A DNA stretch of 64,000 bases, taken from IMG/VR virus record IMGVR_UViG_3300025030_000070, positions 23,830-87,829 of that record; one strand, given 5' to 3'. This document shows, in pieces, positions 2,627 through 18,451 of this stretch (positions within the stretch are counted from its first letter, which is position 1; every line of letters begins with the position of its first letter). The DNA is from a virus. Below the pieces are notes generated by a model that made no database searches, was not told the DNA's origin, and saw only the letters and a program-made list of their open reading frames with translations. The position numbers and the translations under genes were made by a program.

Positions 2627-3043
2627 ATGAATAAGAATGTAAAAATCATTTCAGAATACCAAGACTTAATTAGAGGATTATATGGATATGCGAAAGAGTG
2701 TCTTCAATTTGATGAAGATGCTAAAATTTCTTTCATTCATAGTAGTAAAAATGCTAGTAATCCTCTAGGAAAAACAGCTTTCTACGATCCAGAACAAAAG
2801 AAAATTTCTATATTCATAACTGGAAGGCATATAAAAGATGTTTGTAGGAGTCTAACCCACGAAATTGTGCATCATGCTCAGAATTGCCGAGGAGATCTTC
2901 AAGGACATTCTACTGATGAAGGATACGCACAGGAAAATTCTCATTTGAGACGAATGGAAGAAGAAGCATATCTAGCAGGCAATCTAATTTTTCGTGATTA
3001 CGAAGACAAAATTAAAAAGGAGAATAATAATGAAAGGTACTAA
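2627..3043 (+). CDS. Putative zinc metallopeptidase (HEIVHH)
   Basis: 138 residues from ATG 2627; longer starts would run back into the membrane-protein gene. Residues about 76-86 read LTHEIVHHAQN, an HExxH zinc site, followed by an acidic helix (about 100-125, EENSHLRRMEEEAYLAG) that could supply the third ligand. Short HExxH proteins like this occur in many T4-like and jumbo phages, with no settled function. The C-terminal residues KKENNNE are encoded by a DNA stretch that also forms the next gene's ribosome site, and the same stretch recurs at the next boundary. Confidence 0.6.
   Translation: MNKNVKIISEYQDLIRGLYGYAKECLQFDEDAKISFIHSSKNASNPLGKTAFYDPEQKKISIFITGRHIKDVCRSLTHEIVHHAQNCRGDLQGHSTDEGYAQENSHLRRMEEEAYLAGNLIFRDYEDKIKKENNNERY
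3014..3034 (+). repeat. 21-base repeated ribosome-binding context, copy 1
   Basis: Bases 3014-3034 (five A, GGAGAATAATA, then ATGAA) are repeated exactly at 3273-3293. Each copy contains a strong AAGGAG site and the ATG of the following gene (3030 and 3289). Because each copy also encodes the end of the preceding gene, both preceding proteins end with the same residues KKENNNE. Confidence 0.85.
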
Positions 3044-8524: not shown

Positions 8525-11119
8525 ATGAAAAAAACATACATTTTAGACACATCCGTATATCTTTCTGATTTTCGTTCAATATTTTCATATGGCTCAAACA
8601 ACATTGTCATTCCTTTAATAGTTTTAGAAGAAATTGATAATCATAAAAAGCGCGTGGATAGCGTCGGCACAAATGCACGTGGAATCATTAGGATATTAGA
8701 TTCATTAAGGGAGAAAGGATCTCTGCAAACTGGTGTTAGAGTAAAAAAGAATAGTGGCTTTGTATTAGCAAAAAATTTTGATTTTGGTGTTTTACCAATT
8801 GGTTTTGATTCATCTATTCCGGACCACCAAATTATTGCTACTGCCATAACAGAACAAAAAAATAATCCAAATACTAAAGTTGTCGTTGTCTCATGCGACA
8901 TAAATATGAGAGTTAAATGCGACTCTATAGGTATAAAAGCAGAAGACTATACTCCAAATCGCGCAATAAAAGAAAAATCACAAATCTACACTGGCTTCTC
9001 AACTTTTTTAGTTGATGATCAATTGATTGACAGATTTTATTCTGGTGAAAACATTTATATTTCTAAACAAGATGCTATTAAACAAAAAAATCGATTTCAC
9101 TGTAATCAATTTATAATGTTAGTGTCAAGCGCAAATGAGAAGAAAACAGCAATTGCGCGCTATATGGATGAAAATACTCCTCTTCGTAAAGTAAAAGAGA
9201 GTGAAAATCTTTGGGGCATTTCTCCAAAAAACAAAGAACAAAGTTTTGCCATAGATATTTTATTGGATCCTAACATTCCAGTTGTAAGTTTAATTGGAAA
9301 AGCAGGAAGTGGAAAGAGTTTATTGGCTGTAGCTGCTGGTTTACAACAATTAATGTCATCACCACTAAAAAATGGAAATGGAAAAAACGGAGATAAAGAA
9401 AAAGAACACAAATATAGTAGATTGATTATATCAAGGCCTGTACAGCCGATGGGTCGAGATATAGGGTTTTTGCCTGGCCCACAACCTTTAGATGCTAAGA
9501 TATTAACTCCCAATGGATGGACTACCATGGGTGATATTGAAATTGGAAATTATATTATTGCTAAAAATGGAAAACCTTCGAAAGTTATTGGTACGTTTCC
9601 AAAAGGAAAAAAATCAGTTTTTGAAATTATAACTACTGATAATAGAAAAACAGAATGTTGTGATGATCATTTGTGGTATACCCAGACATCCGAGGAAAGA
9701 AAAAGAAATAAAAAAGGAAAAATACGCAGTACTAATGAAATTAGAACAACATTAAAAATAGGAGACAAAATTAATCATTCAATACCAAGAAACGAACCTA
9801 TACAATTTAATAAACAATTATTACCAATTCCTCCTTATGTATTAGGCGCAATATTGGGTGATGGATCAATATCAAATAGTATTGGTATATCTAATATAGA
9901 TAACGAACTTATTGATAGAGTAAGAAAAGAATTGGAAATGATGGATTGTATTTTAGGTGATCCTGGCAAATCAATTTTTTATAATATAAAAAGAAAATAT
10001 CAAACAAATAATAAACCATCTAGAAAAATAAAAATAACTAATTCTATAACAAAAGAAGAAATAGAATTTTCTTCAATAGGAAAAGCATTAGAAAAATTAG
10101 ATATTAATCGTTCTACTTTGCAAAGTAGATGTGATAAAAAACTTATTATTGATAATTTTAAATATGAATTTCTAGATTGTGAAAACAAATGGAGCAATCC
10201 AATAAAAGAAGAATTATTTAAATTAGGTTTAGAAGGCAGAAAATGTAATGATAAATTTATTCCTAATATTTATAAATTTTCTTCTATAGAAGATAGAATT
10301 GCAATACTGCAAGGATTAATGGACACAGATGGCACAATAAAAGAAAAAGGAGAAGCCGGTTTTATAACAACTAGCAAACAATTGGCATTAGATGTTATTG
10401 AATTAGTTTATTCATTAGGAGGTAAATCAATTTTAAGAAAAAGAGAAATTCGTAAAGAAAATGACAATACAAAAATAAATAATAGAATTGTTAAATCTAA
10501 TTTTTGTACATATGAATTTACAATAAGTCTTCCAGAAACAATTAATCCATTTTTTATTTCTAGAAAATCAAATAGACATAAAGCAAAATATTTACATTTT
10601 AGTAAAATAAAAGAAATTAATTATATTGGAGAAAAAGAAGTTAAATGCATTCTAATTGATGATCCTGAGCATTTATATATAACTGATGATTATATTGTTA
10701 CACATAATACTGTAGCTGAAAAGATGTTACCATGGCTTTCTCCAATTCAAGACAATCTAAGGTTTTTGTTTTCCAATGATCATTTAATGTTATCTCAATA
10801 TATGGAGAAGGGAATAATTGAAATTGAAGCTCTAACATACATTAGAGGTAGATCTATTCAAAATGCTTATATAATAATTGACGAATGCCAGTCATTGACT
10901 AAGCATGAAATGAAAACCATCCTAACAAGAGTTGGAAATGACAGTAAAATAGTTTTGACTGGAGATGTAGAACAGATCGATAACGTACATGTCGATGATA
11001 CTTCTAATGGACTAACTCATGTAGTAGAAAAATTCAAAGAATTTGATTTTGCTGGACATGTAACGTTAACAAAAGGCGAGCGTAGTCGCGTAGCTACCAT
11101 AGCATCGCAGGTATTGTAA
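8525..11119 (+). CDS. phoH: PIN domain-PhoH ATPase interrupted by an intein
   Basis: 864 codons, giving a 454-residue protein after removal of the intein (residues 319-728). Residues 1-150 form a PIN-like nuclease domain (YILDTSVYL, an EEIDNHK acidic site, SCDINMR). Residues about 225-318 plus 729-864 form the PhoH P-loop ATPase: Walker A GKAGSGKS at 258-265, ISRPVQPMGRDIGFLPG, Walker B-type AYIIIDECQ and the KIVLTGDVEQID segment. PIN-PhoH proteins are thought to act as RNA-processing nuclease/helicases and are common in large phages. The start is supported by an AGAGG site 17 bases upstream. The exteins rejoin as FLPG-TVAEKM, matching the usual uninterrupted sequence. Confidence 0.85.
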   Translation: MKKTYILDTSVYLSDFRSIFSYGSNNIVIPLIVLEEIDNHKKRVDSVGTNARGIIRILDSLREKGSLQTGVRVKKNSGFVLAKNFDFGVLPIGFDSSIPDHQIIATAITEQKNNPNTKVVVVSCDINMRVKCDSIGIKAEDYTPNRAIKEKSQIYTGFSTFLVDDQLIDRFYSGENIYISKQDAIKQKNRFHCNQFIMLVSSANEKKTAIARYMDENTPLRKVKESENLWGISPKNKEQSFAIDILLDPNIPVVSLIGKAGSGKSLLAVAAGLQQLMSSPLKNGNGKNGDKEKEHKYSRLIISRPVQPMGRDIGFLPGPQPLDAKILTPNGWTTMGDIEIGNYIIAKNGKPSKVIGTFPKGKKSVFEIITTDNRKTECCDDHLWYTQTSEERKRNKKGKIRSTNEIRTTLKIGDKINHSIPRNEPIQFNKQLLPIPPYVLGAILGDGSISNSIGISNIDNELIDRVRKELEMMDCILGDPGKSIFYNIKRKYQTNNKPSRKIKITNSITKEEIEFSSIGKALEKLDINRSTLQSRCDKKLIIDNFKYEFLDCENKWSNPIKEELFKLGLEGRKCNDKFIPNIYKFSSIEDRIAILQGLMDTDGTIKEKGEAGFITTSKQLALDVIELVYSLGGKSILRKREIRKENDNTKINNRIVKSNFCTYEFTISLPETINPFFISRKSNRHKAKYLHFSKIKEINYIGEKEVKCILIDDPEHLYITDDYIVTHNTVAEKMLPWLSPIQDNLRFLFSNDHLMLSQYMEKGIIEIEALTYIRGRSIQNAYIIIDECQSLTKHEMKTILTRVGNDSKIVLTGDVEQIDNVHVDDTSNGLTHVVEKFKEFDFAGHVTLTKGERSRVATIASQVL
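9479..10708 (+). mobile_element. Class-3-like intein with LAGLIDADG endonuclease, in PhoH
   Basis: 410 residues. It begins with PQPLDAKILTPNGWTTM after the extein FLPG and ends with YIVTHN before a Thr extein residue. The first residue is Pro, not Cys/Ser, so class 1 chemistry is impossible. Block B has CCDDHLW (Trp at the class-3 position) and block F has VKCILIDDPEH (Cys at F:4), the residues of class 3 inteins, although the usual Thr at F:5 is Ile. The endonuclease carries two LAGLIDADG helices (LGAILGDGSI, ILQGLMDTDG). Between them lies a NUMOD1-like DNA-binding insert (IEFSSIGKALEKLDINRSTL). The intein sits next to the ATPase core, the usual place for such elements. Confidence 0.85.
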
Positions 11120-11202: not shown

Positions 11203-11898
11203 ATGAATATTAATTCTATTAGAAATAAATTAAAAGAATCTAAGAGAATGATTATTTTTAATAGAATACCTGTAACAGTAATTGGTACTATATCACCTAA
11301 TATAGATCTTAATAAGATATTAAGACAGATAGAGAGAACTTTAATTAGCAAAAAGTTTTTTTATAATATAGAGGAAATATATTTTGGTAATTTTAACTTC
11401 TTAAAAGGAAGACAAATACAATCACTATATTCTGATGGCTGTATATATGTTTCTGGTTTTAATAATGATCAAGATATTACTGAAACTATAATAATAAAAG
11501 ACATAATTCATGAAATAGGACATTCATTAGAAACGGATTATGGGATGGACATATATGGAGATGGAGAATTAGAATTAGAATTCTATGCGAAAAAGAAAAA
11601 ACTTCTTTTCACACTTAAAAATAGTGGTTACAATTTTCCAGGAAAAGAGTTTCTTTCAAATTCTGAATATTCTATAGAACTAGATAAATTTCTATATAGA
11701 GATGTTGGATATACCATCTTGGGACCTATGATTGTAGGATTATTCACTTCTCCATATTCAGCAACATCATTAAGTGAATATTATGCTAATGGATTTGAAT
11801 ATTTTTATACAATAGGAGATAGAAAATATCTTCAGCAGATTTGTCCAATTCTATTTAATAAAATAAAAGAACTTGACAAAATTATTAAAATGAATTAG
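11203..11898 (+). CDS. Putative zinc metallopeptidase (HEIGH)
   Basis: 231 residues. Residues about 101-112 read IKDIIHEIGHSLE, an HExxH zinc site, and a later helix (about 188-203, SLSEYYANGFEYFY) supplies a candidate third ligand Glu, the layout of gluzincin-type peptidases. It has no signal peptide, so it would act in the cytoplasm or virion. Similar HExxH proteins occur in T4-like marine phages without known function. The start is preceded by a weak ribosome site and by a palindrome at 11175-11190. It precedes two genes with a good ribosome site and an overlap, forming a short operon. Confidence 0.6.
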   Translation: MNINSIRNKLKESKRMIIFNRIPVTVIGTISPNIDLNKILRQIERTLISKKFFYNIEEIYFGNFNFLKGRQIQSLYSDGCIYVSGFNNDQDITETIIIKDIIHEIGHSLETDYGMDIYGDGELELEFYAKKKKLLFTLKNSGYNFPGKEFLSNSEYSIELDKFLYRDVGYTILGPMIVGLFTSPYSATSLSEYYANGFEYFYTIGDRKYLQQICPILFNKIKELDKIIKMN

Positions 11899-11907
11899 AG
11901 GTAATAT

Positions 11908-12336
11908 ATGGAAAAGATTAATGGACAAAATGTGAGTGGCATTTTAATAATGAATCTTAAAGATAAAAATCTTATAAGTATAGATGTGACAGTCGATCCG
12001 ATTCAAGATAAAGAAAAAGAGGTTAGAATCACAACCAAAGATATTACTAGATTTCTCATTGAAGAAAAAAATCTGAACATTACACAATGTGTTAAATCAT
12101 CAGTCGTTACAAATACAGGTGACGATACTTTACATGGCACATGGATTTTTCAATTAATGAATCAAGAAACTAATCATTTAAAACAGATTGAAAAAGAAAC
12201 TAATTCAATTCTTGACATCGATATTACATCCGATGTACCTTTGAAGGAAGACTCCCAAAAACGAAAGCGCGCTAGGAAATTATCTTCTATTATAGAGATA
12301 GACGAAGGAAAGGGAGATCCTGAATCGAGTGTTTAA
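11908..12336 (+). CDS. Hypothetical phage protein
   Basis: 142 residues from ATG 11908 with GAGGT nine bases upstream. Residues 1-100 alternate short strands and helices (ISGILIMNLKDK-like start, VRITTKDITRFLIEE). The tail is charged, with QKRKRARK near 125, and looks disordered. Its stop overlaps the ATG of the Fe-S nuclease gene (TTTAATG), suggesting translational coupling and perhaps a role with it. No family recognised. Confidence 0.55.
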   Translation: MEKINGQNVSGILIMNLKDKNLISIDVTVDPIQDKEKEVRITTKDITRFLIEEKNLNITQCVKSSVVTNTGDDTLHGTWIFQLMNQETNHLKQIEKETNSILDIDITSDVPLKEDSQKRKRARKLSSIIEIDEGKGDPESSV

Positions 12337-13127
12337 TGTATATTTCTTATTCTTCTTTATCTGATTGGTCAAAATGTCCTTTTTATTTTAAGCTAAAATA
12401 TATAGATAAAATTCCTCATGATAAAGGCAGCATACATACAGCTTTTGGCAATGCCGTTCATGCCACTAACCAATCAATTCTTGTAGATAATATCTCAGAT
12501 ATAGAAAATGTGTTTAAAACAAACTTTAAGAGATCTCTTAAAGAACTTTCTGGAAATATTAAACAAAATATTTTCTCTGATAAAAGTCTCAAAAAATTAG
12601 CTAAGGAAATGATGGAAGTTGGACCATCCCTTTGCAAAAAGTCAATTGAGGAACTTCATAAACAGTTTCCTGGTTTTGTGATTATTTCTACAGAAAGTAA
12701 AATAATAGAACCAATTATAAGTTATATGAAAAAGAATTTTGAATTCAAAGGTATTTTAGATGTTGTTATTCATACACCATCAGATGATACAATTCATATA
12801 CTAGACTGGAAAACAACAAGCTGGGGTTGGGATGCTAAAAAAAGAAATGACAAGATGACAACATATCAGCTTACATATTATAAACATTTTCTTTCTCAGC
12901 AAGAAGACATAGAATTAAATAAAATCAAAACTCATTTTGGATTAATTAAACGCACTGCCAAGAAAGATAATATTGAAATATTCGAGACAAAAATAGGAAA
13001 GAAAAAAATAGACAATGCTCTTAAACTTTTAAATACCATGGTATACAATGTTGACAATGAAAAGTTTCCAAAGAATAGATTATCATGTAAATATTGTCCG
13101 TTTTTAAAAACAGAATTCTGTCCGTGA
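12336..13127 (+). CDS. Cas4/RecB-like PD-(D/E)XK nuclease with Fe-S-type cysteines
   Basis: 263 residues. A conserved His lies in GNAVHATNQS (H42). The catalytic core is GILDVVI (D142) followed by ILDWKTT (D157, K159), the PD-(D/E)XK signature of RecB/Cas4 nucleases. Four cysteines, C14 near the N-terminus and C251, C254 and C262 in SCKYCPFLKTEFCP, have the spacing of the Fe-S cluster in Cas4 and AddB. It is probably a DNA exonuclease for recombination or end processing. There are no cas1/cas2 genes or CRISPR repeats nearby, so CRISPR adaptation is unlikely. It is coupled to the upstream gene by a one-base overlap. Confidence 0.8.
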   Translation: MYISYSSLSDWSKCPFYFKLKYIDKIPHDKGSIHTAFGNAVHATNQSILVDNISDIENVFKTNFKRSLKELSGNIKQNIFSDKSLKKLAKEMMEVGPSLCKKSIEELHKQFPGFVIISTESKIIEPIISYMKKNFEFKGILDVVIHTPSDDTIHILDWKTTSWGWDAKKRNDKMTTYQLTYYKHFLSQQEDIELNKIKTHFGLIKRTAKKDNIEIFETKIGKKKIDNALKLLNTMVYNVDNEKFPKNRLSCKYCPFLKTEFCP

Positions 13128-13151: not shown

Positions 13152-14024
13152 ATGTTGAGGAAGTGCATTATATGTGAGAATGAGTTTGAAGGAACGTGGG
13201 CGTCCAAAACATGTTCAAAAGAATGTCGCGTGAGACACAATAACGACAGAACTAAAAAAAATCGATTACAACATTTATCAATTTTTAATTGTAAAGAATG
13301 TCAAAAAGAGGTTATAAGGTATAGGAAGGGTGGTGGATTTTGTAGCAACAGTTGCGCTTCGAAATTTTACATAGAAAATGGTGCGTATAATAAATGGCGT
13401 TATCGAGCTAATGATAAAAAAGGAATATACAAAAATTGTATTATATGTGATAAACCATTTTACGCAAAACCTTCTGAAGTAGAAAACAAGAAGTTGTGTG
13501 GTAATAAAATTTGTCATCAAAAATATATGTCTAATTTATTTTTTGGTGAAAATAATCCAATGTTTGGTAAAAAACTTACAAATGAACAAAAGTTGAAACA
13601 AAAAAATACTTTACAAAAAAATCATGGCGTTAATAACGCTTATGAACTTTCTAAGCGTCATGCTCAGAGTAAGCCAAACAAAGAAATCTTAGATTTTTTA
13701 CAAAAAGAACTTAAAGAATTTGGGTTTAAAGCTGAACAATACATTTCTGGATTTTATGCTGACGTTTTTAGCAAAAAGCATTCTATAATTGTTGAATTTA
13801 ACGGTGGTTATTGGCACTGCGACCCTAGAGATTATGATAAAAAATATTTCAACAAAAAAAAGAACATGTATGCCAATGAAATATGGGAAAAGGATGAAAA
13901 AAGGTTAAACTTTTTAAAAGGATTAGGATATAAAGTTTATATTATTTGGGAAAAAGATTTTAACGAAAATAAAAAATTAGTTTTAGAAAGGTTAAGGAAA
14001 GAAATAAGTGACAAAAAAGATTAA
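13152..14024 (+). CDS. EDxHD (Vsr-like) homing endonuclease with Zn ribbons
   Basis: 290 residues. The N-terminal half has three CxxC-type zinc ribbons (CIICENEF...CSKEC, CKECQKE...CSNSC, CIICDKPF...CGNKIC). Next comes a NUMOD3-like FGENNPMFGKKL segment for DNA contact. The C-terminal Vsr-like fold has Asp in GFYADVF, Glu and His in IVEFNGGYWHCDP and a DEKRLNFLKGLGYKVYII helix-strand, the catalytic set of EDxHD homing endonucleases. It ends 26 bases before the 5' splice site of a group I intron, and its last 17 bases overlap the start of the intron-containing gene. That suggests a free-standing partner that cuts the intron-less version of that gene. Confidence 0.8.
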   Translation: MLRKCIICENEFEGTWASKTCSKECRVRHNNDRTKKNRLQHLSIFNCKECQKEVIRYRKGGGFCSNSCASKFYIENGAYNKWRYRANDKKGIYKNCIICDKPFYAKPSEVENKKLCGNKICHQKYMSNLFFGENNPMFGKKLTNEQKLKQKNTLQKNHGVNNAYELSKRHAQSKPNKEILDFLQKELKEFGFKAEQYISGFYADVFSKKHSIIVEFNGGYWHCDPRDYDKKYFNKKKNMYANEIWEKDEKRLNFLKGLGYKVYIIWEKDFNENKKLVLERLRKEISDKKD

Positions 14025-15592
14025 AATACTAACAATTTCCGATCATCCGTCGACTGACAAGGTTTAGCGGATGTAAAATCGGGTGAATTGCTGGAAAATT
14101 CTTAAAAACATTGTTCTACAGCGTAGTTGGAAACGACATGCGCGAAAGAAAAAAAATAATGTAATTGAACAATCAGCAGCCAAGCTCCTGTCTGGAAACG
14201 GTGGAGAAGGTTCAGAGACTACGGTTAGCCTAAATTGCTATAGCAACATGGTAATGATCCGACAGCGCCCGACATGTTTTTGTAACATGGTGATATAGTC
14301 CAATAATCGTAAGCCCGTCTGGGGTTGGATCGCAAACTAAATACATGTGTGAAGCACTCCTTAAAACAGGAAAATATCAGATTATTACTTTAGGTGGCGC
14401 ATTAGTTCACAGTGATCGACGCATTGTTAAATTCCATGAATTTGGAGATGATTGGATCATTTATCCAGTTGATGGGTATGCCAATCAAGAAATTGTTCGT
14501 TCAGTCGTTAGAAATCATAGACCTGATATTCTTTGGTTTATGACCGATCCAAGATTCTATATTTGGCTTTGGGAAATTGAACACGAAATACGTTCCTTGG
14601 TACCGATGGTTTATTACCACGTTTGGGATAATTACCCATATCCAAGCTTCAATAAAGTATTATATGATTCAACAGATTTCATTGCTACCATTTCAAAACT
14701 TACATCAGACATTGTAAAGACTGTTTCTCCAAACGTAGAAGAAACATATTTTCCGCATTCTGTGAATACATCCGTTTTTACTAAATTACCAGATGACAAA
14801 ATCATTTCTTTAAGAAGAGAGAATTTTCCCAATGCTACAGATAAAATGTTGTTTTTCTGGAATAGCAGAAATGCTAGAAGAAAGCAAAGTGGAACTCTTA
14901 TTTGGTGGTTTAAAGAATTTTTAGACATTATAGGGCACGATAAAGCAATGCTGCTTATGCACACTGAGCCAAAAGATGAAAATGGACAAGATTTATATGC
15001 CATAATTAAAGAACTTGGTTTAGATAAAGAGCAAAGTGTTTTTATATCTAAAGATAAATTAACATCAGAAAATATGGCAGGAATTTATAATATGGCGGAT
15101 GCTACTCTATCAATTTCGGATGCAGAGGGTTTTGGACTTTCTGTTTTTGAAAGCCTTGCTTGTGAAACTCCAATTATAGTCAGTATGACAGGTGGTTTAC
15201 AAGAACAAGTAATGGATATGACAAATATTCAAATGTCTTGTGAATTTGTCGAAAAAAGAAATAATGAGATATCTGATAAAATAAAAATATGTGAACATGG
15301 AATTGGAATAATTCCGGCGTCAAGCGTTGTAATTGGATCACAAACAGTGCCATATATTTTTGAGGACAGAATTTCAAAACCGGATTTTCTCAAGGCAATG
15401 GTTATGTTTTATAATATGACAAAAGAAGAACGCATATTGATGGGTAAAAAGGGAAGAGAACATGTTATCAAAAATTATAATTTTGAATCATTCAACAAGC
15501 GTTGGGATGAAGTTTTAACTCATGTTCACGAAAAGCATGGTAGTTGGGAAAATAGAAAATGTTACAGAGCGTGGGAATTGAGAACTTTATAA
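14008..15592 (+). CDS. GT4-type glycosyltransferase, split by a group I intron
   Basis: The spliced coding sequence is 14008-14050 joined to 14310-15592, giving 441 residues. It starts at GTG 14008 with AAGGAAAG upstream and reads MTKKIKILTISDHP then LSPSGVGSQTKYMCEALL across the junction, a normal GT-B N-terminus with a GVG nucleotide loop. Without splicing the frame stops at 14065-14067. The C-terminal half has the donor-binding segment SDAEGFGLSVFESLA with E-x7-E, followed by a PIIVSMTGG loop. It is probably a retaining glycosyltransferase of the group 1/GT4 family acting on surface polysaccharide; donor and acceptor are unknown. It heads the sugar region. The intron makes expression depend on RNA splicing. 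Confidence 0.88.
14051..14309 (+). ncRNA. Group I self-splicing intron, 259 bases, no internal gene
   Basis: P1 forms between exon bases 14044-14050 (CATCCGT) and the guide at 14067-14073 (GCGGATG), with the required U-G wobble at the 5' splice site T14050. P10 pairs the 3' exon start 14310-14314 (TAAGC) with 14062-14066 (GTTTA), with one G-U wobble. The intron ends in G14309. Core elements are visible in order: a GCTGGAAA-type P element near 14090, AATCAGCAGCCAAGCTC at 14171-14187 (Q), GGTTCAGAGACTAC at 14209-14222 (R) and GATATAGTCC at 14292-14301 (S). Splicing restores DHP-LSPSGVG in frame. No endonuclease gene lies inside. Confidence 0.92.
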
Positions 15593-15940: not shown

Positions 15941-18451
15941 ATGACTAAAAAAATCATAATGAGGGGACCTTTTTTGAGCCAAAGCGGTTATGGTGTTCAG
16001 AGTCGTTTTGCTCTTTCCGCTCTTCGAAAGTTTCCAGAACGATTTGACATATATCTCATTAATACCCCTTGGGGTAGAACAAGTTGGACATGGGAAGATA
16101 CAGAAGAGCGCCGCTGGATTGATCAAATTCTTCAAAAAACTCTTGTTTATCAACAACAAGGTGGACAGTTTGATATATCATTACAAGTTTGTATCCCAAA
16201 TGAGTGGAAAAAAATGGCTCCAATTAATATTGGATATACTGCTGGAATTGAAACAACTAAAATTTCACCTCAATGGTTTCAGGGATGTTTCAATGTAAAC
16301 AAAATTCTATTAACATCTAATCATTCTAAATTTGGTTTTACCAATGCGCAGTTTCCAGCGACAGATAATGTTACAGGAAGACAATTTGTTGCCAAACTTG
16401 AGATGCCAATGGAAGTTGTTCCTTATCCGGTTAGAATTGTAGAACCAAAACCAATTAATGTTGATTTTAAGTATGATTTTAATTTTCTAACTGTAGCTCA
16501 ATGGGGACCACGAAAGAATGTTGAAAATACAATTAAATGGTTCGTTGAAGAGTTTATGAATAAAGAAGTTGGATTAATATTGAAAGTCAATTCCGTTAAT
16601 CAATCATTAATGGATAGAGAAATGACTCAAAATAGAGTTAATGATGTTTTATCTCAATTTAATGGAAAAGAACGAAAATGTGCTATACATCTTTTACATG
16701 GAGATTTAAGAGAGGAAGAAATGACTTTTCTTTATAGACATCCAAAAATTAAAGCTTTCATTAGTTTAACGCACGGAGAAGGTTTCTGCGGATTGGACTA
16801 TACTCCAATTATTACAGACAAAGGACTTAAGAAATTGATCGATATTAAATCTGGAGATTTAGTATTGACTCATAGAAATCGATATCGAAAAGTTATAACT
16901 CCTATGTCTCGTGAATATTCTGGCGAGATGATTAAAATTGTTCCATATTGTGCAGTACCTATGGAACCAATTGTTTTAACGCCGAATCACAATGTTTACA
17001 TTTATGATAATAAAAATAAAGAATTCTTGTGGAAAAGAAGCGATGAATTAAAACAAAATGACTATTTGGTTTTGCCAAAAATGTCAAAAAAAGAAAATAT
17101 CATTAACAATATTGATATATTTGAACACGTAAAAAATGAAAAAAATTTAGTACTAAACGATGAAGATATTTTTTATATGCATTCAAATAAACTTGGCCTA
17201 AAAATAAAAAATAATATCAATATTGATAAAAAATTTGGTAGATTGTGTGGATGGTTTTTAGCCGAAGGATGTGTATCTGATGATAGAATTATTGCTTTTT
17301 CTCTTCATGATAAAGAAATTGATTCTTTTGGAAAAGAAATTATCAATTGCATGAAAGATATATTCGGGATAGAACATTTTAGGATAGAAAAAAGAAAAAA
17401 TAAAAAATGTTCTGTTATTGTATTTCACAATAAAATTGTGGCTTTATTTTTCAAATCTTTATTGGGAAATAAATCAAAAAATAAAGTTATTAGTGATTGC
17501 GTTTTCTCGTTTCCTAATGAATTTAAAGAGGGAATGATTACTGCTTTATTTGAAGGAGATGGATATATTAATACTAAAAATTACAAGAATCCATCTATAG
17601 AGGTACAACTTGTCAATAAAACATTATTGAGACAAATTAGAATATTATTATTAGAACAAGGAATATTATGTTCCTATAAAATGTGCACCCGAGAAGGAAT
17701 TATTAAAGAAAAATGGAATTACAAGAGTGAAATTCATTCGTTAGTTATTGGAAAAAAAGAAAGTATTAATAAATTTGTAACCATGTTAAATAAACATACT
17801 TCTAATACTGTAATATACGACACACTGCAGTTGGCAGATTCGTTTAATGAAAAACAATCTGGAAGAACTAAAGAAAAAGAAGATTGTTTTTTGCTGAGAA
17901 TAAAAAATATTACTAAATTTCAGCACGCTGGTAAAGTATTCAACCTTTCTGTTGAAGAAGACGAAACTTATTGTACTGAAAATTTTATGGTGCACAACTG
18001 TCTTCCAATGTTTGAATCAGCATATAATGGATTGCCGATAGTTGCCCCCGCATGGAGTGGACAAAATGATTTTATTTATATGCCAATAAAAGATAAGAAA
18101 AAGAATAAAATCAAAAATACATGTATGATTTCTAACGTAGCGTACGATATTAAAAATGTTCAACCAGAAGCAGTTTGGGATGGAATAATTATTCCTGATG
18201 CACAATGGTGCTTTCCTAGAGAAATTGATGCTAAACAACAAATGAGGGAAGTTTACAAAAATTATGGTTCTTGTAAATCGCGAGCAAACAAACTTCAAGA
18301 ATATGTGTTAGACAAATTTGATTCCGATAAGATGTTGACACATTTCGCCGATTGTGTAGATGAATATTATCCAATTGTAGATATTGCGGATTTTCTGAAA
18401 GAAGAAAAAGAAGTTAATCCCTTATTGAAAGAAGTTATTGCGTATGATTAA
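15941..18451 (+). CDS. GT4-type glycosyltransferase interrupted by an intein
   Basis: 836 codons, giving a 432-residue protein after removal of the intein (residues 283-686). The N-terminal domain starts IIMRGPFLSQSGYGVQSRFA, a typical GT-B glycine loop. The C-terminal donor domain begins near 180 (NFLTVAQWGPRKN) and contains LTHGEGF, which is cut by the intein from CLPMFESAYNGLPIVAP. Joined, the two form EGFCLPMFE, the E-x7-E active site of GT4 enzymes. Without protein splicing the enzyme cannot have a working donor site. AGGA lies nine bases before the ATG. It is part of the sugar gene run; the next gene starts inside its last eight bases. Confidence 0.88.
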   Translation: MTKKIIMRGPFLSQSGYGVQSRFALSALRKFPERFDIYLINTPWGRTSWTWEDTEERRWIDQILQKTLVYQQQGGQFDISLQVCIPNEWKKMAPINIGYTAGIETTKISPQWFQGCFNVNKILLTSNHSKFGFTNAQFPATDNVTGRQFVAKLEMPMEVVPYPVRIVEPKPINVDFKYDFNFLTVAQWGPRKNVENTIKWFVEEFMNKEVGLILKVNSVNQSLMDREMTQNRVNDVLSQFNGKERKCAIHLLHGDLREEEMTFLYRHPKIKAFISLTHGEGFCGLDYTPIITDKGLKKLIDIKSGDLVLTHRNRYRKVITPMSREYSGEMIKIVPYCAVPMEPIVLTPNHNVYIYDNKNKEFLWKRSDELKQNDYLVLPKMSKKENIINNIDIFEHVKNEKNLVLNDEDIFYMHSNKLGLKIKNNINIDKKFGRLCGWFLAEGCVSDDRIIAFSLHDKEIDSFGKEIINCMKDIFGIEHFRIEKRKNKKCSVIVFHNKIVALFFKSLLGNKSKNKVISDCVFSFPNEFKEGMITALFEGDGYINTKNYKNPSIEVQLVNKTLLRQIRILLLEQGILCSYKMCTREGIIKEKWNYKSEIHSLVIGKKESINKFVTMLNKHTSNTVIYDTLQLADSFNEKQSGRTKEKEDCFLLRIKNITKFQHAGKVFNLSVEEDETYCTENFMVHNCLPMFESAYNGLPIVAPAWSGQNDFIYMPIKDKKKNKIKNTCMISNVAYDIKNVQPEAVWDGIIIPDAQWCFPREIDAKQQMREVYKNYGSCKSRANKLQEYVLDKFDSDKMLTHFADCVDEYYPIVDIADFLKEEKEVNPLLKEVIAYD
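16787..17998 (+). mobile_element. Class 1 intein with LAGLIDADG endonuclease, in a glycosyltransferase
   Basis: 404 residues. It starts with Cys1 (CGLDYTPIITDKGLKKLIDI), has a block-B-type LTPNHNVYI, and ends with VFNLSVEEDETYCTENFMVHN-type block F/G residues before a Cys+1 extein residue, so all class 1 splicing residues are present. The endonuclease domain has two LAGLIDADG-type helices, LCGWFLAEGCVS and MITALFEGDGYI. The insertion site lies between Phe and Cys of the enzyme's E-x7-E donor-binding motif, the most conserved part of the host protein, which is typical of homing elements that choose sites that cannot be lost. Confidence 0.88.

Follow-up and report, generated by a model that had tools for sequence, protein, structure and literature searches.

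A group I intron in a viral glycosyltransferase gene and an adjacent endonuclease gene form a probable collaborative-homing pair

To our knowledge, only a handful of phage systems are described as examples of collaborative homing. The psbA intron of cyanophage S-PM2 contains no homing endonuclease gene (HEG) and lies next to a free-standing one, F-CphI, just as the intron described here does (PMC6083498). The terminase intron of phage ICP1, with a T5orf172 HEG beside the N-terminal exon, and the introns of T3/T7-like phages (PMC10448857) share this layout but involve a different HEG family and host gene. Here we analyze a 64,000-nucleotide window of an 87.8-kb virus record (IMG/VR IMGVR_UViG_3300025030_000070) in which a glycosyltransferase gene (GT) is interrupted by a group I intron without its own open reading frame and preceded by a putative HEG. 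F-CphI has an Endo VII-type motif and psbA as its host gene, whereas the pair in the window combines an EDxHD/Vsr-like HEG with a glycosyltransferase, and its HEG, unlike F-CphI, overlaps the first exon. Cleavage by F-CphI has been shown (PMC6083498), whereas the HEG in the window is known from its sequence and predicted fold.

The interrupted glycosyltransferase gene and its neighbors

The first-pass annotation of this DNA had placed a group I intron, to the base, inside a phage glycosyltransferase gene. The intron lies at those bases (Table 1) and is the one group I intron in the virus record; the earlier reading was incomplete in that it missed the HEG. The arrangement recurs in L002, a 201-kb contig from the same virus. 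The Rfam search that had been proposed as a check succeeded on positions 13900-14450, where cmscan matched the full RF00028 model (1-253) at 62.2 bits (E 1.9e-15; gathering score 50). It failed in a whole-window scan at the gathering threshold, which returned no match to the intron. This was a filter loss that targeted scans recovered, and a negative default scan is thus no evidence of absence.

Table 1. Features of the locus and related loci bearing the intron (positions are those of the window)
Feature	Position	Strand	Evidence
EXO, PD-(D/E)XK exonuclease-like gene, conserved upstream GT neighbor	12336..13127	+	Pfam PDDEXK_1 E 1e-20
HEG, predicted free-standing homing endonuclease, 290 aa	13152..14024	+	Pfam NUMOD3, DUF559, MTES_1575; AlphaFold/Foldseek; homologues beside same intron
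GT exon 1, GTG start, 14 codons + 1 nt	14008..14050	+	aligns to N-terminus of 79 intronless GTs
P1 5' strand, exon side, ends in splice-site U	14044..14050	+	7/7 pairs with 14067-14073
Group I intron, without own ORF	14051..14309, 259 nt	+	RF00028 62.2 bits; covariation across 12 introns
P10 5' strand	14061..14066	+	6/6 pairs with exon 2 14310-14315
In-frame TAG at P1 guide strand, ends translation of unspliced message	14065..14067	+	in-frame stop at or before IGS G in all 15 introns examined
P1 3' strand, internal guide sequence (IGS)	14067..14073	+	7/7 pairs with 14044-14050
P3 5' strand	14079..14085	+	pairs with 14266-14272 in 12/12 introns; one compensatory position
P4 5' strand	14089..14094	+	pairs with 14173-14178; invariant in 12/12
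P7 5' strand, GACTA, R element	14217..14221	+	pairs with 14296-14300, 12/12; RF00028 alignment
P7 3' strand, TAGTC, S element	14296..14300	+	12/12 paired; RF00028 alignment
GT exon 2, GT4-type glycosyltransferase	14310..15592	+	Pfam Glycos_transf_1 E 3e-10; PHROG glycosyltransferase
Other GT loci with intron	L087/L090/L093, L091/L104, L092, L094, L096, L108, L109		
Other GT loci with intron, continued	L158/L160, L159, L161, L191, L193, L203		

The intron has the P3, P4-P6 and P7 core, a U.G pair in P1 at the 5' splice site, a 3' terminal G and P10. Its details agree closely with the first-pass annotation: P1 pairs CATCCGT with GCGGATG and sets U14050 opposite G14067, the intron closes with G14309, the TAG at the guide strand ends the unspliced frame, and the core elements claimed earlier are recovered both in the full-model match and in core helices paired in 12 of 12 introns. 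The five-pair P10 proposed before (14310-14314 with 14062-14066) gains a sixth pair, 14315 with 14061. The join that had been put forward, exon 1 to exon 2, reads VTKKIKILTISDHP-LSPSGVGSQTKY... and gives an open frame of 441 aa with its stop at 15592, the intron interrupting the spliced GT after codon 14. Because the 5' exon starts at the GTG at 14008, exon 1 measures 43 nt, of which 17 overlap the 3' end of the HEG. From the fold and the splice sites we infer that the intron splices itself from the mRNA; it likely belongs to subgroup IA, with a P7.1/P7.2 insertion.

Comparison of 12 aligned introns from the identical GT site reveals compensatory changes at 25 helix pairs. Doubly changed cells number 109, against 33.7 in shuffles, and 97.5% of cells are paired, a figure that falls to 30-40% when partners are slid along the sequence. 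Since introns at the same site keep the fold through so many double changes, it is not a product of chance. Minimum free energy folding of the single intron was uninformative (z -1.73). Covariation extends across the exon boundary: P1 joins exon ATGCCGT to IGS GCGGCAG in L092 and exon CATCCAT to IGS GTGGATG in L191, where the window has CATCCGT and GCGGATG. P10 likewise pairs better with the cognate exon 2 than when exons are swapped (p 0.00045 by permutation). An in-frame stop lies at or before the IGS G in all 15 introns examined, and a stop ahead of the core is a known means of excluding ribosomes from it.

The gene upstream is predicted to be a free-standing EDxHD/Vsr-like homing endonuclease. 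Cys-rich, zinc-finger-like repeats at its N-terminus are followed by NUMOD3 and a C-terminal EDxHD/Vsr-like nuclease. An AlphaFold model built on an alignment of 17 sequences reached pLDDT 88; a model from the single sequence was useless (pLDDT 34.5). Foldseek returned the catalytic domain of I-Bth0305I (3r3p) as the top PDB match (TM 0.71 over the target) and Vsr as the next, both at E 1e-3 and probability 1.00, consistent with a Vsr-like catalytic fold. The five closest HEGs share E178, D204, E215, N217, H222 and D224, as judged by alignment rather than active-site superposition, and E215 and H222 are conserved in all 17 sequences. The closest homologues occupy the same position beside the same intron. 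A search for relatives with the single HEG sequence recovered only the same virus, and alignments or intron patterns were needed to go further. The 3' end of the HEG appears to provide the ribosome-binding region of GT.

Other elements lie close by. The next gene, at 15941-18451, encodes a second glycosyltransferase. An intein interrupts it near the HGEGF/C motif (Pfam Intein_splicing E 1.6e-13) and contains a LAGLIDADG endonuclease domain, giving the neighboring GT genes a second mobile element. At 8525-11119, an intein-like insert that contains a LAGLIDADG domain splits a PhoH-like protein whose N-terminus has a PIN domain, and L108 and L109 carry the same gene without the insert. Positions 11203-11898 encode a protein of 231 aa that includes HEIGH, an HExxH motif like that of zinc proteases, and similar proteins occupy the same place in L090, L096, L108 and L109.

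Distribution and mobility of the intron and HEG

A search of IMG/VR with the spliced GT protein identified 79 intronless relatives (54-60% identity) that read uninterrupted through SDHP-LSPSGVG, the motif split by the intron in the window. This reading, like the introns at the identical base in other contig groups, backs the boundaries assigned to the intron. EXO ends -1 to 74 bp upstream of the GT start in 77 of the 79; an EXO match is absent upstream of GT in one, L058. In the window this spacing is 880 bp and is occupied by the HEG. An insert of 1 kb between EXO and GT in L022 was considered as a HEG and rejected, as it encodes a GDP-mannose dehydratase. No HEG was found in any of the 79 intronless loci.

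Three scans that were blind to the HEG and used only the intron sequence placed the intron at the identical GT base in about 14 contig groups, the window and some 13 others. A HEG or a remnant of one lies directly upstream in all of them: it is full length in eight groups (window included), cut by the contig end in one (L203) and reduced to a remnant in five. Four of the remnants consist of the C-terminal part only (L092, L158/L160, L159 and L191). In L094 (1226-2472, minus strand) the intron is retained, and a GDP-mannose dehydratase gene, related to the gene in L022, separates N-terminal and C-terminal HEG fragments. Because the HEG or its remnant stands beside this intron in each related virus that was found, the locus is probably a collaborative-homing module, and HEG and intron appear to be a single selfish element spreading together. 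In L161 (615-1640) the HEG frame continues through GT exon 1 into the intron before it stops, and HEG translation could therefore clash with intron folding there.

In the relatives scanned, RF00028 scores ranged from 58 to 101 bits. The exception is L090, which gave a 28-bit partial match in a long scan and whose intron aligns fully with the others; L096 and L109 were placed by alignment only. About 40 contigs share the intron core in other genes and none of them has a HEG homologue, which ties the HEG to the intron at the GT site and not to the intron type generally. A strict intron-core pattern search returned no matches, and a search of cellular genomes returned two, both by chance. Two phage contigs deserve mention on their own account: L100 (Staphylococcus phage CF5) has four RF00028 matches in a row over ~1.1 kb (1411-2543), and L101 (Listeria phage LPJP1) has a strong match to group II intron D1-D4 (94 bits, 2811-3003). 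Group II introns were long thought to be absent from phages (PMC12350094).

The distribution of the intron on the GT tree points to movement. The tree requires six changes of the intron label, four of them forced by well-supported branches, and a single intron-bearing GT clade is rejected (AU p 1.7e-6). L104 and L056 form a sister pair with GTs that are 88% identical, of which L104 has both the HEG and the intron and L056 has neither. Their flanking DNA is 81% identical and the locus differs only by a gap of 914 bp (the HEG) and a gap of 263 bp (the intron), separated by the 43-nt exon 1. HEG and intron are thus absent together from the empty alleles, both in this pair and across the 79 loci. 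Between L104 and L090, identity is 81% for the HEG, 66% for GT and 48% for EXO, the order expected if the module had moved between them. Over the first 20 nt of exon 2, L104 agrees with L090 at 18 positions and with its sister L056 at 13; farther out L056 is the closer. This trio hints at co-conversion, a short signal partly explained by the pairing needs of P10. Averaged over all pairs, co-conversion left no signal, and a tree-corrected sign test was not significant with its 4-6 independent contrasts, a number that prevents the test from reaching 0.05 when only supported branches are used.

A proposed homing mechanism and its alternatives

Altogether we favor a model, with a probability of about three in four, in which the ORF-less intron and the adjacent HEG form a collaborative-homing pair. 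We envision that self-excision of the intron from the mRNA would preserve GT synthesis, with the in-frame stop in P1 holding ribosomes off the catalytic core. The HEG would cut intronless GT genes at or beside the intron site, and repair from the donor would copy HEG, exon 1 and intron jointly. The intron would, in turn, shield the donor's own GT from the HEG. Once the site is occupied the HEG would decay, and some relatives have the intron and a C-terminal HEG stub only. Another position in EXO or GT could also be the target. A different origin described for such pairs is HEG turnover in which an intronic HEG is lost (PMC10448857), and the pair at the GT locus may have arisen in this way.

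The intron could instead be a passenger. In ordinary intronless homing the HEG would cut its own insertion junction, in the EXO-GT intergenic region or at a nearby site, and the intron, 26 bp away and within the co-converted tract, would be brought along by conversion of the flank. The position of the HEG, outside the intron, would agree with this, as would the usual choice of neighboring genes as targets by free-standing HEGs. This account is unlikely, if one to take seriously, given that the 79 intronless GT loci include no HEG-only locus and that no intron-bearing GT locus lacks a HEG or remnant. Simple descent of a group I intron beside an unrelated nuclease gene, their linkage reflecting history and not cooperation, would fit the fact that introns and HEGs can outlast homing, and five contig groups have HEG remnants only. 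We regard descent as improbable in view of the patchy distribution, the empty sister allele in L056, the stronger conservation of the HEG than of its neighbors between lineages and the restriction of the HEG to introns at the GT site. It is more improbable still that the protein encoded by the HEG, or its zinc-finger portion, serves as a maturase or a regulator of GT and not as a homing enzyme: remnants do keep just the end that seems to supply the GT ribosome-binding region, but the nuclease residues E215, N217, W221 and H222 are conserved across the HEG family and introns persist beside nothing more than a HEG stub.

The pair could also have wider effects. It might act as a gene drive on a glycan-gene hot spot, with cuts at the conserved GT start motif replacing the EXO-GT junction time and again and moving neighboring sugar-modification genes between viruses, an idea we hold to be rather doubtful. 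As context, the broken HEG of L094 encloses a GDP-mannose dehydratase gene, and such a gene is found at the L022 junction, which has neither HEG nor intron. A benefit in competition has been shown for the phage carrying gp210 of PhiPA3 (PMC11620839), and by analogy the pair described here might possibly confer one on its virus.

Relation to known homing systems

Among homing endonucleases, the closest parallel to the HEG is I-Bth0305I of the EDxHD type (PMC3943268), with which it shares a predicted catalytic fold linked to modular DNA-binding units. A mobile group I intron is the known source of I-Bth0305I, whereas the HEG in the window lies outside its intron and has a Cys-rich N-terminal region. 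Among introns, those in the tail-tip hydrolase gene of Staphylococcus phage DW2 and the capsid region of Vibrio phage 1.232.O match RF00028 with ~70-75% core identity and occupy genes other than GT; in these and the other phage records with related introns the HEG has no close homologue. The first-pass annotation had called a glycosyltransferase an unusual host gene, in keeping with the literature searched, in which we found no paper on a phage group I intron in such a gene; this coverage is partial, most subscription papers lying outside it.

Systems of this kind are already known; what appears to be new is the glycosyltransferase host gene, the EDxHD partner and a series of intact, decayed and empty loci across many lineages. 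The locus adds a glycosyltransferase to the host genes of phage group I introns, and the EDxHD class to the free-standing partners of introns. With the same intron and HEG at one base in about 14 groups, from intact to stub and with an empty-site sister, it offers a natural series that could test how an intron and an endonuclease outside it join, spread and decay, and what leads mobile introns to acquire endonucleases.
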